Shown here piece after piece: positions 2,156-7,281 of a stretch of 7,810 bases of DNA. The first letter of the stretch is position 1, and every line of letters starts with the position of its first letter. The DNA is taken from NCBI GenBank assembly GCA_903930515.1, contig CAIYYW010000253.1:1-7810 (forward strand). Direction: 5' to 3'. Source of the stretch: an uncultured delta proteobacterium (GTDB taxonomy: Bacteria; RBG-13-61-14; DRUE01). The position numbers were made by a program, and so were the translations under genes. The notes under the pieces were generated by a model. The model saw nothing but the letters and a program-made list of their open reading frames with translations. It made no database searches and had not been told where the DNA came from.

Positions 2156-3235
2156 TTAGAAATATCCTTGGAAGGATTCGGGCAGGTTCTTTCCGCAAAG
2201 GTTCTGGTCCAGGAACCGGCCTAAATCTTTGGTGTTATAGGTATGCCAGAACAAAATATTTTTGTCCTTCAAGTTTCGGTCTTTCAGGTATTTGATCATT
2301 GCCGCCATGGTCTTGGCGGTATAAGTGGTGTCCAGGGTCAGGCCCTCAATCTCGGCCAGCATTTTTTTCGCCGATTTTGCCTCCTCGGTGATCGCAGCGT
2401 ATTCTCCTCCGAAGAAATTGTGGATCATCTTCACATCCTTGGCGCTGAATTTCAAGGCCGGCAAATCGGCCCCGGCTTTGCTCAATTTTTTATGGGCGCG
2501 GTTCAAAATGCTGGCCACGATCCGCTCGTTGCAGGCGAGGTAATCGGTTATGCGCACACCGATCACCTCGGTCTTCATCCCGAGCACTCTCGCCCCGAGC
2601 TGTATTCCGGACATGGTCCCGCCGGTGCCCGCGGTCACGAAGATGTAATCCGGCTCCGGGAGCAATCCCTGGTCAATCTGCTTTTTCAATTCAAACATCG
2701 CGTTGAAATACCCGAAGGCGCAGGTGGCGGAGGAGCCGAAGGTGGGGATGTAAAACGGGAACTGCCTCTTGCCAAAGTCAAAATTGCGCAGGTAATGATA
2801 GAGGATCATAAACGGGACCAGGTAGGGGCTGTTGACATGGTTGAATTCCACGCCCATGGTCTTGTCAATCAGCATATGCTTGCACATATAATCGGTCGGA
2901 CACTGCTTGAAGAATATACCGACGATCTTGAACCCGAGGTCCTTGCCGTAAATGCCCGAGGCCAGGATCTGGTTGGACCCGAGCGCTCCCGGGGAGATGG
3001 CAACGGTCTTGCCCGAGGCCTTCATCTCCGCAAGCAGGAACTCCATCACCCGGACCTTGTTCCCGCCCATTTTCTGCGAGCTTAAATCATCCCGCTTCAC
3101 CCACAGGTTCGGATACCCGAGCATCCCTCCCAGCTTGCTCATCTTCTCCACCGGCGTGGGATAGTTTCCCATCTCAATCCAGGGAATGCTTTTCTCCAAC
3201 CGCGGATACGCCTGAAAAATATCCGGCTTGTACAT
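2156..3235 (-). CDS. PLP-dependent enzyme, ACC deaminase/D-cysteine desulfhydrase family
   Basis: This 359-residue fold-type II PLP enzyme belongs to the family that opens ACC or breaks D-cysteine into pyruvate, ammonia and sulfide. The PLP lysine is Lys60 in QKMGGNKVR. GALGSNQ (83-89) matches the substrate-carboxylate loop, and TAGTGGT (201-207) is the PLP phosphate loop. LDTTYTAKTM (301-310) aligns with the conserved catalytic tyrosine segment. ACC deaminase has Glu295 and Leu322, the pair that separates it from D-cysteine desulfhydrase; here the aligned residues are Thr306 and Thr332, which favours the desulfhydrase type. The usual Gly-Gly after that position is Tyr-Asn. It is slightly longer than the roughly 330-340 residues typical of the family. 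I chose the ATG at 3235 because AGGAG lies seven bases upstream; an upstream in-frame TTG at 3271 overlaps the likely -10 box. It is the first gene of the minus-strand operon. The exact substrate is not proven. Confidence 0.85.
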   Translation of the reverse strand: MYKPDIFQAYPRLEKSIPWIEMGNYPTPVEKMSKLGGMLGYPNLWVKRDDLSSQKMGGNKVRVMEFLLAEMKASGKTVAISPGALGSNQILASGIYGKDLGFKIVGIFFKQCPTDYMCKHMLIDKTMGVEFNHVNSPYLVPFMILYHYLRNFDFGKRQFPFYIPTFGSSATCAFGYFNAMFELKKQIDQGLLPEPDYIFVTAGTGGTMSGIQLGARVLGMKTEVIGVRITDYLACNERIVASILNRAHKKLSKAGADLPALKFSAKDVKMIHNFFGGEYAAITEEAKSAKKMLAEIEGLTLDTTYTAKTMAAMIKYLKDRNLKDKNILFWHTYNTKDLGRFLDQNLCGKNLPESFQGYF

Positions 3236-3242
3236 CAGACTA

Positions 3243-3247
3243 CTCCT
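3243..3247 (-). promoter_or_regulatory. Ribosome binding site of the PLP-enzyme gene
   Basis: AGGAG on the minus strand lies seven bases before the ATG at 3235. It decides the start against the in-frame TTG at 3271. Confidence 0.75.
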
Positions 3248-3270
3248 GCTTAAAAAGTTTAGCTGATTCA

Positions 3271-3299
3271 ATCATAATTTGACTGTCGGGCAAAAGCAA
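3271..3299 (-). promoter_or_regulatory. Putative sigma70-type promoter for the minus-strand operon
   Basis: On the minus strand, TTGCTT (3294-3299) and TATGAT (3271-3276) are separated by exactly 17 bases. The -10 box matches the consensus in five of six positions and the -35 box in three of six. The predicted transcript would start near 3264 and give a leader of roughly 28 nt containing the AGGAG site. No operator or riboswitch is apparent. Confidence 0.45.
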
Positions 3300-3314: not shown

Positions 3315-3350
3315 TTGATGATTGTCCCCGCCCAGCCTTTATTGTATGAT
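3315..3350 (+). promoter_or_regulatory. Possible promoter(s) for the plus-strand gene set
   Basis: Two weak overlapping sigma70-like options are visible: TTGATG (3315-3320) with TTTATT (3338-3343), and TTGTCC (3322-3327) with TATGAT (3345-3350), each with a 17-base spacer. Either would give a very short or no leader before the ATG at 3358, which has only a weak GAG in front. This is tentative, since such matches occur by chance. Confidence 0.25.
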
Positions 3351-3357
3351 TGAGAAA

Positions 3358-3774
3358 ATGGCGAAACGGGTGATGGGAATAATAATGATGCTTCTCGGTC
3401 TGGCCCTGATTTTGACTCCCTGGTATCTTTTCCCGGTTTGCGGCAGAGGAAGATACGCTCCGAAAGATCCTGGAATTTATCCGCGGCATAAATGCGCCAA
3501 CACCCTCAAGGCTGAGACCGTGCTTGGTTTATTGACCATCAGCGTCGGCGCAATCTCCCTGGTCCGGCCGAGGCGAAAAATTTTAATCGGCTCTTCCGCG
3601 GCGCTTCTGATCCTGTCCGGATTAGTGGCGCTTTTCCCGCTCCAGATTACGGGTTTATGCAAGATGGCGACTATGCCCTGCCGGATGGGAACCCTGCCTG
3701 CGCTGATCACCCTGTCAATCCTGATGGCGATTATCGGCGTTGCGGGAATAATTCAAGGACGCGGTTGGAAATGA
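3358..3774 (+). CDS. DUF4418-type four-helix membrane protein
   Basis: This 138-residue protein resembles the uncharacterised DUF4418 family: four hydrophobic helices (about 4-25, 52-69, 76-97, 114-133), an early PWYLFPVC motif, and LCKMATMPCRMGTLPA before the last helix. The positively charged RPRRK (70-74) between helices 2 and 3 should be cytoplasmic. That places Cys28 and Cys46, and Cys101 and Cys108, in the two loops outside the cytoplasm, alongside His45 and several Met residues. Metal binding or disulfide chemistry is possible but unproven. The stop codon overlaps the start of the permease gene (ATGA, 3771-3774), which suggests translational coupling and a shared complex. The start is uncertain: ATG 3358 has a weak GAG upstream, while ATG 3346 adds four residues and has no visible ribosome binding site. 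The function is unknown. Confidence 0.75.
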   Translation: MAKRVMGIIMMLLGLALILTPWYLFPVCGRGRYAPKDPGIYPRHKCANTLKAETVLGLLTISVGAISLVRPRRKILIGSSAALLILSGLVALFPLQITGLCKMATMPCRMGTLPALITLSILMAIIGVAGIIQGRGWK

Positions 3775-5000
3775 AGCATTTTTTGGCGGCTTACCTGGTC
3801 CGGAAAAACATCCGGCGCCGGTTGTTCCGCTATTTGATTCTGGTGGTGAGTGTGGCGGCAGCGGTCGGGATGCAGGTCAGCGCGGCTTTGATTGACCGGA
3901 TGAGCCGGGAGAGCCTGGAGCTTGGACTCAAGCGCCTGGGCGCGGACCTGGTCGCGGTCCCGGCTGGGTTGGATGCTGAACTGCAAAAATCATATCTTAC
4001 GGGCGATGCCGCGATTTTTTATATGGACCGGTCCATTCAGGATCGGATTTCCGGGTTTGATTTTGTGGCTCAGACCTCGCCTCAGCTTTTCATCAAGTCT
4101 TTGGCCAATGCCGGTTGTTGCTCGTTATGGAACATATACCTGGTGGGGTTTGACCCGGACACGGATTTTACCATCAAGCCCTGGCTTGCCCCGCGATTTA
4201 CTCGGGGCGCCGAAAGGAAGATTGGCGCGGATGAGGTCTTGGCTGGAGCGGCCCTGGGCCTGGAAGAGGGAAACACCTTGAGGTTTTACGGGCAGAGCTT
4301 CAAAGTTGGCGGGATTCTTTCGCCGACCGGGATGGGTCTGGACCGCGCGGTTTTTATCCCGATCCGGAGCGCGTATCGGATGGCTCGGGAATCCAAGACC
4401 AAGGCGGAGCAAGAATTGGATCTTTCTCCGGATAAAATTTCCGCGGTTTTGATCAAGCTCAAGGCCGAAAAAGATGGCGGCTTGCCCGCGTATCGCGCGG
4501 CGTTTGAGCTGGAGCAGAGAATTCCGGAGATCAGCATACTCCAGCCCGAGGAACTGGCGATGAAAATCCAGCAGAACCTTTCCACGGTCCTAGCCGGACT
4601 GCGCTCAGCCAGTTATGCGATCTGGTCTGCAACGGCTTTGCTGATTGCCCTGGTGTTTGCCATGGCAACCAATGAGCGAAAGCGCGAAATCGGCCTGATG
4701 CGGGCAATGGGCGCGACCCGCGGGCTGATCTTCCGGATGATTATGATGGAAGCTTTGCTGGTCGGCGGGACCGGGTCATTGATTGGTTTGTTGTGCTCAA
4801 CCGGATTGGTGCTGGGATTTTCCAGCCTGATCTCCCAAAGCCTGGGGGTTCCCTTTTACCAGCCCGGGCTGGGCAAATTGGTTCCCCTGTCTTTAACCGC
4901 CCTGGCTCTTGCGCTCCTGACCGGAATGATTGCCGGGCTATATCCTGCGCTCCGCGCCAGCAGGATGGAGCCATATCAGGCAATCCGGAGCGGGGAATGA
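3771..5000 (+). CDS. ABC transporter permease, FtsX/MacB (LolC/E-like) family
   Basis: This 409-residue permease has the MacB/FtsX-type plan: one N-terminal membrane helix (about 21-41), a large extracytoplasmic domain (about 42-275), then three C-terminal helices (about 281-300, 324-351, 372-395). The cytoplasmic segment NERKREIGLMRAMGATR (301-317) and the tail PALRASRMEPYQAIR (392-406) are hallmarks of the FtsX domain. Such proteins usually act as dimers with a LolD/MacB ATPase and drive mechanical work on periplasmic substrates rather than ordinary import. A Cys-Cys pair (116-117) followed by LVGFDPDTDFTIKPWL (124-139) lies in the extracytoplasmic domain; from memory this resembles permeases encoded with DUF2318/P19-Ftr1 iron loci, so a metal or redox role is possible. 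It overlaps both neighbours by 4 bp. No MacA-type adaptor or outer-membrane partner is present. The substrate is unknown. Confidence 0.87.
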   Translation: MKHFLAAYLVRKNIRRRLFRYLILVVSVAAAVGMQVSAALIDRMSRESLELGLKRLGADLVAVPAGLDAELQKSYLTGDAAIFYMDRSIQDRISGFDFVAQTSPQLFIKSLANAGCCSLWNIYLVGFDPDTDFTIKPWLAPRFTRGAERKIGADEVLAGAALGLEEGNTLRFYGQSFKVGGILSPTGMGLDRAVFIPIRSAYRMARESKTKAEQELDLSPDKISAVLIKLKAEKDGGLPAYRAAFELEQRIPEISILQPEELAMKIQQNLSTVLAGLRSASYAIWSATALLIALVFAMATNERKREIGLMRAMGATRGLIFRMIMMEALLVGGTGSLIGLLCSTGLVLGFSSLISQSLGVPFYQPGLGKLVPLSLTALALALLTGMIAGLYPALRASRMEPYQAIRSGE

Positions 5001-5644
5001 TCAAAGTTCAAAAAGTCAGCAAGGTTTACGGCGCGGGTCAAAATCAAATCCACGCCATCGGCGATTTGAGTTTTGAAATATATAAAGGCGAGTTTGTGAT
5101 GCTCTTCGGTCCTTCCGGCTCGGGCAAAACCACGATCCTGAATATCATCGCCGGCTTGACCAGACCCAGCCGGGGCAAAGTGTTCCTGGATCAGCAGAAT
5201 ATTTTTGAGATGAGCGACCGGCAATTGACCGGATTCCGCGCAAGAAATATCGGTCTGGTCTTCCAGTCCCAGAGTATGCTGACGCACCTGAACAGCCTGG
5301 ACAATGTCCGGCTTGGGCTGCGCCTTGCCGGGAAAAAAGACGATCCGGACCTGGCGAAAAAAGCTCTGATTCGGATGGGCCTGGAAGACCGGATTCTGGC
5401 TTATGCCAATGAGCTTTCCGCGGGTCAGCAAAGGAGAGTGAGCATTGCCCGGGCTTTGGTCAAGCGTCCAAAGATCCTGCTCTGCGACGAGCCGACCGGA
5501 GACCTGGACCCGGACACGGAAAAATCCATTATGGAGATGCTGAAAAAAGCGCATCAGGCCGGAACCACCATCCTGATGGTCACCCATAATTCTTCGCTGG
5601 ACTCCTACGCCACGCGTGTGCTTCAAAAAAATCTGGTAAGATAA
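4997..5644 (+). CDS. ABC transporter ATP-binding protein, LolD/MacB type
   Basis: This 215-residue ATPase has every nucleotide-binding motif in order: Walker A GPSGSGKTT (38-46), Q-loop VFQ with Gln90, signature LSAGQQRR (140-147), Walker B ILLCDEPTGDLD (160-171) with catalytic Glu165, and the H-loop His197. The signature reads LSAGQ rather than the common LSGGQ, a tolerated variant. The length and the ARALVKRPKILLCDEPTGDLD block fit the LolD/MacB/FtsE subfamily that partners with FtsX-type permeases. The ATG overlaps the permease stop (ATGA, 4997-5000) and has GGAG and GGGGA upstream. A longer in-frame reading without this start would run back inside the permease gene and was rejected. It should energise the neighbouring permease at the cytoplasmic face of the membrane. 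Confidence 0.93.
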   Translation: MIKVQKVSKVYGAGQNQIHAIGDLSFEIYKGEFVMLFGPSGSGKTTILNIIAGLTRPSRGKVFLDQQNIFEMSDRQLTGFRARNIGLVFQSQSMLTHLNSLDNVRLGLRLAGKKDDPDLAKKALIRMGLEDRILAYANELSAGQQRRVSIARALVKRPKILLCDEPTGDLDPDTEKSIMEMLKKAHQAGTTILMVTHNSSLDSYATRVLQKNLVR

Positions 5645-5646
5645 AT

Positions 5647-5664
5647 GCCACGGTGCGCCGTGGC
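5647..5664. repeat. Palindrome (hairpin element B)
   Basis: A perfect 7-bp stem, GCCACGG/CCGTGGC, encloses a TGCG loop two bases after the ATPase stop codon. A T6 run occurs at 5672-5677, but seven bases separate it from the stem, so it is not a standard intrinsic terminator. It could slow the transcript or protect its 3' end between the ABC genes and the LDI-like gene. Confidence 0.6.
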
Positions 5665-5685
5665 CCGACAATTTTTTAAATGATC

Positions 5686-5692
5686 AAGGAGG
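5686..5692 (+). promoter_or_regulatory. Ribosome binding site of the LDI-family gene
   Basis: AAGGAGG lies five bases before the ATG at 5698. It fixes that start and rules out the in-frame ATG at 5680, which lies upstream of it. Confidence 0.85.
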
Positions 5693-5697
5693 TTGGA

Positions 5698-7281
5698 ATG
5701 AGCGGGAAAAAGAAATGGCGGATACTTCTTCTCTCGGTTTTGCTCGTAATGCTTTGGGTTGATGTTCCAATCGCGAGGTCAACAGACCTGACGATTGACC
5801 CGGACTCTTACCCGATCATCTCGGACCAGGAGATGGGTCAGATGCGCTGGACTTTGATGGTGGCGAATCAGGCGCTGGATGACTATTCCAATATGGAGGC
5901 GCAGAACCAGGTCGGTATGACCTCATACCGCTATTTGATCGCGTTCTCCAGTTATTTTCTCGCCACTGAGCAATTCCACAAACTGCCGGCCTGGACCGAG
6001 GCGCTTCAGCCGGCTCTGGACAAATCCATTCAGAGGATGATCCAAAAACCGGTCTGGGAATTCTGGGCAAAGACCAGCCAGGGCGTTCCCAACCTGGAGC
6101 CGAATTTGAACAAGCCCTATCCGGAAAACCGGGACCCGGTTTCCTACCGAAATATAATGTATTCCGGTCATCTCGGGCATATGATCAATCTCTATGAAAT
6201 GCTTTATCGCGATTTCAAATGGGACCGGAGCGGGTCCATTGTTTTCGCCTGGGCTGACCGGGAAAAATATGTTTATGACAATCATTCTCTGGAAAAAGTG
6301 ATGTATGAGCAGATGAAGAATAATCCCTGGCATTCCATAGAATGCGAGCCCAACGCGGTTTTTCCAGAATGCAACCAGCACCCGGTCCTGAGCTTCATCC
6401 TTTACGATTACACGCACGGAGCGCATCTCTCCGAAGTGCGCGATCAATTTATGGACTTTTTCCTCAAAAATAAGCTGATCGCCCCGAACACGCACCAGAC
6501 CGCAATGTGCTATCTGGTCAAGCAGAAGATCACTATTTCCGATCAGGACCCGCGGTTCGGGAACCTGCTGGACCTGGCGGTGACGCCGATCATCTCGCTC
6601 GGGATCGTGGGTCTGGATTCCCCCTCGGCGGATGGCTGGACCGGGGCGTTTATGCATGCGTGGCAGCCGGATTATATTGCGAGGCATTATCCTTACCAAC
6701 TGAAGCGACTCTTGAAGAGCGGCCCGGAGCCGACTGTTCGGCTCAAGAAGGAGATCTGGGAGCCCCGGAGCAGTTATGGTTTTTTTGCGGTTTATGCCGC
6801 GGAGATGGGGGATCTGAAAACCCGGGATGGAATCCTGGCGTATGCGGATCAAACCTATCAGCCGGCCTGGCTTAATGGCGCGTATCATTATCCCTACAAC
6901 CTGAAACAGGGATGCACTAATCTCACGGATCGGCTGCTGGCGCTTGGCCGCGCCAATCCCAAGGACGGTCTCTGGAAGATGCATAACCAGCCTTTTGACC
7001 CGGAGCATTTTTCAGAGCCGAAACTCTCGGGCGTGGATTTTCCCAAGGTCCTGATCCTGCGCGCGATTTACGACCGGGACAAAAAAGCCCTGATTATCAC
7101 GGTCAAGCCCGGGGATCAGAAAAGCGGCTTCACCGGTTTCAATATTGTTCAGCTCGACCAAAAAAAATCGTACCGGCTCTTGATTGACGGGAAGGAGATA
7201 AATAAATATGCTGGGCAGACATCGATTCCAGTTAAAATCAACCTGGACCAAGAGCGCGACCTGATTTTAATGGAAGATTAA
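5698..7281 (+). CDS. Exported linalool dehydratase/isomerase (LDI)-family protein
   Basis: This 527-residue protein starts with a Sec signal peptide: KKKWR, a hydrophobic stretch at about 9-21, and a likely cut after ARS (residue 28). The body resembles LDI of Castellaniella defragrans, a periplasmic enzyme that hydrates/dehydrates and isomerises monoterpene alcohols. Matches recalled from LDI are RYLIAFSSYFLA (78-89), NIMYSGHL (152-159; LDI Met125/His129), IECEPNAVFPEC (214-225; LDI Cys171 and Cys180, same spacing of nine), LYDYTHG (235-241), ARHYP (328-332) and AAEMGD (367-372). Asp61 or Asp62 may stand for LDI Asp39, but the LDI tyrosines 45 and 240 have no clear equivalents, so the substrate probably differs. 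Residues from about 447 to the end form a beta-rich tail beyond the usual LDI length (about 400 residues). It lies 53 nt after the ATPase gene, with a hairpin between. I am confident of the family and unsure of the reaction. Confidence 0.82.
   Translation: MSGKKKWRILLLSVLLVMLWVDVPIARSTDLTIDPDSYPIISDQEMGQMRWTLMVANQALDDYSNMEAQNQVGMTSYRYLIAFSSYFLATEQFHKLPAWTEALQPALDKSIQRMIQKPVWEFWAKTSQGVPNLEPNLNKPYPENRDPVSYRNIMYSGHLGHMINLYEMLYRDFKWDRSGSIVFAWADREKYVYDNHSLEKVMYEQMKNNPWHSIECEPNAVFPECNQHPVLSFILYDYTHGAHLSEVRDQFMDFFLKNKLIAPNTHQTAMCYLVKQKITISDQDPRFGNLLDLAVTPIISLGIVGLDSPSADGWTGAFMHAWQPDYIARHYPYQLKRLLKSGPEPTVRLKKEIWEPRSSYGFFAVYAAEMGDLKTRDGILAYADQTYQPAWLNGAYHYPYNLKQGCTNLTDRLLALGRANPKDGLWKMHNQPFDPEHFSEPKLSGVDFPKVLILRAIYDRDKKALIITVKPGDQKSGFTGFNIVQLDQKKSYRLLIDGKEINKYAGQTSIPVKINLDQERDLILMED

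Follow-up and report, generated by a model that had tools for sequence, protein, structure and literature searches.

A probably exported, catalytically intact member of the linalool dehydratase/isomerase family in an uncultured phylum, and candidate selenocysteine-containing relatives

Enzymes of the linalool dehydratase/isomerase (LDI) family convert alcohols to alkenes with no need of a cofactor and have drawn industrial interest with regard to isoprene and butadiene, and the only characterised members that we found in the literature are Ldi and Lis. The known system closest to the locus described here is the LDI of Castellaniella defragrans 65Phen (Ldi, LinD; EC 4.2.1.127 / 5.4.4.4; PDB 5HLR, 5G1U), which is periplasmic and has been described as optimal for a role in defence (PMC4791888). 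Mutants of its residues C48, C101, C170 and C179 are all inactive; the C48–C101 disulfide is essential for activity and C170 and C179 are proposed to be catalytic (PMC6600392), with both an acid-base and a covalent thioterpene route proposed for the reaction (PMC6600392, PMC6013536). In the numbering used below the two catalytic residues are C171 and C180 (C170 and C179 in mature numbering), and Cys102 of 5G1U is C101 of the mature protein.

The window, which is the whole 7,810-nucleotide stretch of DNA analysed here, encodes a protein that resembles LDI in having the Pfam Ldi core, the catalytic Met/His/Cys/Cys set together with its neighbouring residues, and a putative signal peptide for export. 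Unlike LDI, which has ~371 residues when mature, the window protein is 527 residues long with an extra C-terminal beta domain, shares a core identity of ~25%, lacks the C48–C101 disulfide, has Ser in place of Tyr240 and has no catabolic operon nearby. The second characterised enzyme, Lis of Thauera linaloolentis 47Lol (EC 5.4.4.4), has a soluble part of ~505 residues (140–644; PMC4791888) that equals the mature length of the window protein, so that Lis is probably a long form as well, going by a comparison of length and not of sequence. It differs from the window protein in carrying four N-terminal membrane helices and facing the cytoplasm, where the latter has a putative signal peptide instead. 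The window gene adds a member to the known Ldi family, and from its sequence the product is a genuine, catalytically intact and probably exported enzyme of that family in an uncultured phylum.

Family membership, catalytic residues and architecture

The open reading frame underlying the original prediction was borne out in both its coordinates and its start, as the ATG at 5698 follows a strong Shine-Dalgarno sequence and is a better start than the in-frame ATG upstream at 5680 (Table 1). The prediction had assigned the product to the LDI family and proposed a search with the Pfam Ldi model as a check, and membership was confirmed by that search: PF18566 matched with 250 bits against a curated cut-off of 26.1 (E=5.4e-74), and a profile built from ten relatives matched the LDI crystal chains over LDI residues 63–367 (E=1.4e-56). 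The supported sequence matches in the PDB were the C. defragrans LDI entries only, and an NCBIfam search with the 527-residue protein returned no match. Nothing has been characterised in the window's lineage, in keeping with the earlier remark that such homologues are little characterised.

Table 1. Positions of features in the window and of the candidate selenocysteine homologues in G234 and G096
Feature	Location	Strand	Basis or remark
DUF4418, MacB-like FtsX permease (3774-5000), ABC ATPase (4967-5644)	3322..5644	+	Pfam/NCBIfam; neighbours, putative unit
Perfect 7-bp inverted repeat, then T6	5647..5676	+	sequence
Shine-Dalgarno AAGGAGG	5686..5692	+	sequence; ends 5 bases before ATG 5698
LDI-family CDS, long form, 527 aa	5698..7281	+	PF18566 E=5.4e-74; profile vs LDI chains E=1.4e-56
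Putative Sec-type signal peptide, about residues 1-29, without lipobox Cys	5698..5784	+	by eye: n-region KKKWR, hydrophobic core
LDI catalytic core	5929..6900 (stretches 5929-6543 and 6616-6900)	+	Pfam match
Q116 at place of LDI disulfide Cys101	6043..6045	+	profile alignment
MYSGH: M154, H158 = LDI M125, H129	6157..6171	+	alignment with LDI
CEPNAVFPEC: C216, C225 = LDI catalytic C171, C180	6343..6372	+	alignment with LDI
S310 (place of LDI Tyr240) to W314 (= LDI W244), with D312	6625..6639	+	alignment
C-terminal beta-sandwich, residues 441-527	7018..7278	+	AlphaFold pLDDT about 62-92
L014, Ldi homologue	G234 C1:33321-33989	-	TGA at base 1738 of reverse complement
L015, Ldi homologue	G096 C1:900168-900833	-	TGA at base 1738 of reverse complement

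Residue correspondence was read from three MAFFT modes against an LDI reference composed of residues 76–360 and N-terminal residues 9–84, the latter identical to the PDB chains. These modes place window M154, H158, C216 and C225 on LDI M125, H129, C171 and C180, which upholds the claim of an intact catalytic set, and they pair LDI E172, P173, F177, N181 and N123 with window E217, P218, F222, N226 and N152, and LDI Y126, W106, W244 and Y66 with window Y155, W120, W314 and Y79. The MYSGH motif lies at residues 154–158 as described. The second motif, CEPNAVFPEC, also stands at its predicted place (residues 216–225), with a spacing that had been misread: it is CEP-x(6)-C, as in LDI, and not CEP-x(5)-C. 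The motif pair was found in 0 of 20,000 shuffles, which is a rough guide only because the second motif was scored in its x(5) form, and the family match is therefore carried by the profile E-values.

Within the window's clade all catalytic positions are invariant. Across the family, C216 is invariant in every row and C225 is kept except in four degenerate rows, with a candidate selenocysteine (Sec) in one branch; the window's clade retains His158, and the Agrobacterium and Variovorax relatives have Tyr instead. The degenerate rows (L013, L027, L028 and L029, from G202, G437, G673 and G623) are short Ldi homologues that keep C171 and have lost M125, H129 and C180, and they probably differ in function.

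The signal peptide that had been claimed is visible by eye as an N-terminal leader in the window protein, and similar leaders are seen in the three homologues from the same phylum (L003 and both L004 copies). The overall layout is that of the long form, with signal peptide, LDI core and C-terminal beta-sandwich, the last of which occurs in most other homologues but not in C. defragrans LDI or its short relatives. This domain is modelled with fair to high confidence and is similar to C-terminal domains found in glycoside hydrolases (Z about 5–7.7 over ~80 residues), middling scores that would reflect a common arrangement and not kinship, and a likeness to HypC (E=0.05) was put down to chance. 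LDI is an (alpha,alpha)6 barrel whose four catalytic residues share one cavity at a subunit interface. For the window protein, two AlphaFold runs with four sequences (window, L003 and the two L004 copies) gave core mean pLDDT values of 42 and 40, which are low because only those four sequences were in the input. These models are too poor for a cavity to be seen in them, and in a fold comparison of this low-confidence model (pLDDT 40–42), which carries no evidential weight, LDI entries were among the weak matches only.

Occurrence, gene neighbourhoods and relatives

The gene is present in three of three examined genomes of a small uncultured phylum-level group. Among 386 genomes drawn widely, nine had an Ldi match, the three phylum genomes included, and the family is thus rare and patchy. 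In one phylum genome (G002, locus L004) two copies stand in tandem at 7938–11741, the second broken by unresolved bases, next to a glycosyltransferase-type ORF and a truncated FAD-oxidoreductase-like ORF. A 166-aa ORF between these tandem genes starts like an FAD oxidoreductase and has an end like that of the upstream glycosyltransferase-type ORF, and would be a chimera produced by recombination or assembly.

The window gene follows a putative unit of ABC-type genes. In L003 a DUF4418-like ORF and a permease also precede the Ldi gene, with an opposite-strand gene in between; this permease resembles the MacB-like permease of the window, and no ATPase follows it. A functional tie between the Ldi gene and the upstream ABC genes was rejected in view of the intervening opposite-strand gene in L003 and the different neighbours in L004. 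Since the neighbourhoods differ among the window, L003 and L004, the Ldi gene behaves as a single unit. The inverted repeat downstream of the ATPase gene could possibly mark the end of the ABC unit and leave the Ldi gene as a unit of its own; a consensus scan performed no better than shuffles.

In all three phylum genomes, terpene pathway genes adjoining the Ldi gene and a catabolic operon around it were both absent. A defence role was set aside, as PADLOC gave no match. No relatives were found on viral contigs. Elsewhere in the window, a URO-D/MtaA-like methyltransferase gene occupies 38–1330 on the minus strand, and a similar gene adjoins a short LDI homologue in G311 (L049, 15196–16374, minus strand); with two cases only and ~4 kb between the genes in the window, a partnership was dismissed as coincidence. 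The gene at 2156–3271 (minus strand) encodes a PLP enzyme of the D-cysteine desulfhydrase/ACC deaminase-like group that falls below every curated NCBIfam cut-off.

The window's clade is sister (99/98) to plasmid genes of Rhodococcus erythropolis BG43, Agrobacterium vitis/Allorhizobium and Variovorax paradoxus, whose products match the window protein over its full length, C-terminal domain included, with a core identity of 28–29%. The BG43 homologue has a twin-arginine-type leader, and the BG43 and Variovorax genes lie within degradation-type clusters. On the BG43 plasmid pRSLBG43 (L019, 6998–13572), genes for an aldehyde dehydrogenase (ALDH), a Zn-dependent alcohol dehydrogenase (Zn-ADH) and an acyl-CoA ligase stand directly upstream of the long Ldi homologue and run in one direction with it; a P450 and a ferredoxin reductase gene lie beyond them, and the Ldi homologue itself is annotated as a hypothetical protein only. 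Alpha/beta hydrolases flank the long homologues in Variovorax and G725. Judged by its gene content, the BG43 cluster is likely a myrcene/linalool degradation cluster, and its Ldi homologue may possibly be relevant to the unexplained conversion of myrcene to geraniol in R. erythropolis MLT1 (PMC6013536). The three upstream genes form a set that would take a primary alcohol, for example geraniol, to the acyl-CoA, and so favour an isoprenoid-alcohol role; by analogy they correspond to the geraniol-to-geranoyl-CoA set expected after the LDI step. For the window protein, at a core identity of 28%, these neighbours offer only a hint of such a role.

Proposed function and the altered pocket

We favour, with a probability of roughly 60%, the reading that the window protein is exported and works, without a cofactor, as a hydratase/dehydratase-isomerase of the LDI family. 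Because every known catalytic residue is kept, the hydroxyl of a terpene-type alcohol is probably moved or removed. In the proposed mechanism, C216, C225, H158 and M154 would act in the periplasm on an allylic alcohol or alkene, the two thiols, together with H158 and M154, protonating or taking up the substrate hydroxyl within a hydrophobic cavity that, to judge from the LDI counterparts, would be lined by Y79, Y155, F222 and W314. This would give a carbocation or thioether, which would then either lose a proton to yield an alkene or take up water at the opposite end. The substrate would be an isoprenoid alcohol, allylic and tertiary (or primary), with no particular one implied. As the gene stands alone in this uncultured sediment phylum, periplasmic detoxification or scavenging of terpenoid alcohols is more likely than a dedicated catabolic operon. 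Weighing against the favoured reading are the core identity of only ~25%, the loss of Tyr240 and of the disulfide on which LDI depends, and the absence of adjoining terpene pathway genes in the three phylum genomes.

The original prediction had taken a changed pocket as a sign of a different, perhaps non-terpene, substrate. Two of the differences that it cited are present: LDI Tyr240 falls on S310, and the LDI disulfide cysteines are unmatched, with Q116 at the place of C101. The only cysteines of the window protein are residues 216, 225, 271 and 406, and with none N-terminal to C216 the C48–C101 disulfide cannot exist. The region of LDI Asp39, Tyr45 and Cys49 aligns differently between MAFFT modes, and Y63 adjoins the place of Tyr45 when counted from the preceding helix, in an N-terminal alignment that is ambiguous. 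The substrate argument drawn from these differences is weak. The C101 column is non-Cys in 21 of 21 other family rows, including L049 from G311, which is LDI's nearest relative in the tree (100/98 support), so that among the sequences seen the disulfide is peculiar to C. defragrans LDI; the Tyr240 column holds S, W, Y, L, V, F and others across the family; and a sister-clade member lies in what appears to be an operon for terpene-alcohol oxidation. Being common in the family, the Tyr240 and disulfide changes cannot alone indicate a non-terpene substrate, and while such a substrate is possible for the window enzyme, the features cited for it lend it no support.

The alternative that survives best retains the fold and the cysteine chemistry and assigns a substrate that is not a monoterpenoid, for instance a tertiary alcohol of the steroid type, a short branched alcohol or an isoprenoid of larger size. 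It can draw on S310 in place of Tyr240, with D312 common to several long forms, on the absence of a terpene operon beside the gene, and on an identity to LDI of 25%, a level of core divergence that would give enough room for a new substrate; in addition, an LDI-like tertiary-to-primary hydroxyl migration has been suggested for oxygenase-independent cholesterol catabolism (PMC3691188). Set against this are the retention of Y79, Y155, F222 and W314, the family-wide variability of the Tyr240 column and the alcohol/aldehyde/acyl-CoA operon around a sister-clade member, and on balance we consider a non-monoterpenoid substrate plausible yet unlikely. Loss of enzymatic activity, leaving a binding or sensing protein, has a precedent in the four rows of one family that lack M125, H129 and C180, and is very improbable in a clade whose catalytic positions are all invariant. 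Least credible is a sugar-acting enzyme with the barrel and C-terminal beta-sandwich layout of six-hairpin glycosidases such as GH127, whose members also use a catalytic cysteine: the C-terminal domain does resemble those of GH27, GH127 and similar families at the scores given above, and one GH127 entry spans residues 44–527 with only 85 aligned residues, but no glycosidase family matched at E up to 10 where Ldi did, the supported PDB sequence matches are all LDI, and no residue of the LDI catalytic set has been lost.

Homologues with a candidate selenocysteine at the second catalytic position

In G096 and G234, two genomes of one genus, the Ldi homologue contains a single in-frame TGA that stands exactly at the column of LDI C180 (HCENTKIWPV-U-LSAAGL), a column occupied by Cys in LDI, L054, L055, L058 and the relatives in G616 and G725. 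Both genomes have selB and tRNA-Sec above the curated cut-offs; in the window genome neither exceeded them. A GGUCU loop that begins 18 nt after the UGA can be closed by a stem of 7 bp (-10.5 and -9.6 kcal/mol). These hairpins lie within the limits described for bSECIS elements, namely a loop of 3–9 nt with G in its first two positions, an upper stem of 4–16 bp, a distance of 16–37 nt from the UGA and an MFE of at most -7.5 (PMC13188914), and their GGUCU stands where E. coli fdhF has GGUCU. In folds of some longer stretches a rival hairpin nearer the UGA competes with them. Downstream of the TGA the frame is kept, and changes fall most often at third positions. A code in which TGA specifies Trp is disfavoured, as the selB frames are open without an internal TGA and the TGA of the Ldi homologues falls at a Cys column.

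Taken from two closely related genomes, these homologues represent a candidate new selenoprotein family, and neither linalool nor PF18566 appears in the main text of a review from May 2026 that covers the prokaryotic selenoproteome (PMC13188914). We regard it as quite probable that the family's second catalytic cysteine, C225 in the window protein, serves as the reactive centre in a broad and mostly unstudied family in which one branch carries Sec, this cysteine being singled out as the one that a relative would have made more reactive. If true, this would be a new selenoprotein family, one that catalyses the non-redox hydration/dehydration of alcohols or the migration of their hydroxyl group, and Cys/Sec swaps could decide between the acid-base and the covalent thioether mechanism proposed for LDI.

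In summary, the window adds to the Ldi family a clade of long forms with an export tag and no disulfide, which occurs in all three examined genomes of a tiny uncultured phylum, and because LDI needs its disulfide for activity this clade may be useful for engineering. The Sec homologues would in turn provide a natural probe for which cysteine does the chemistry, a debated point of the mechanism.
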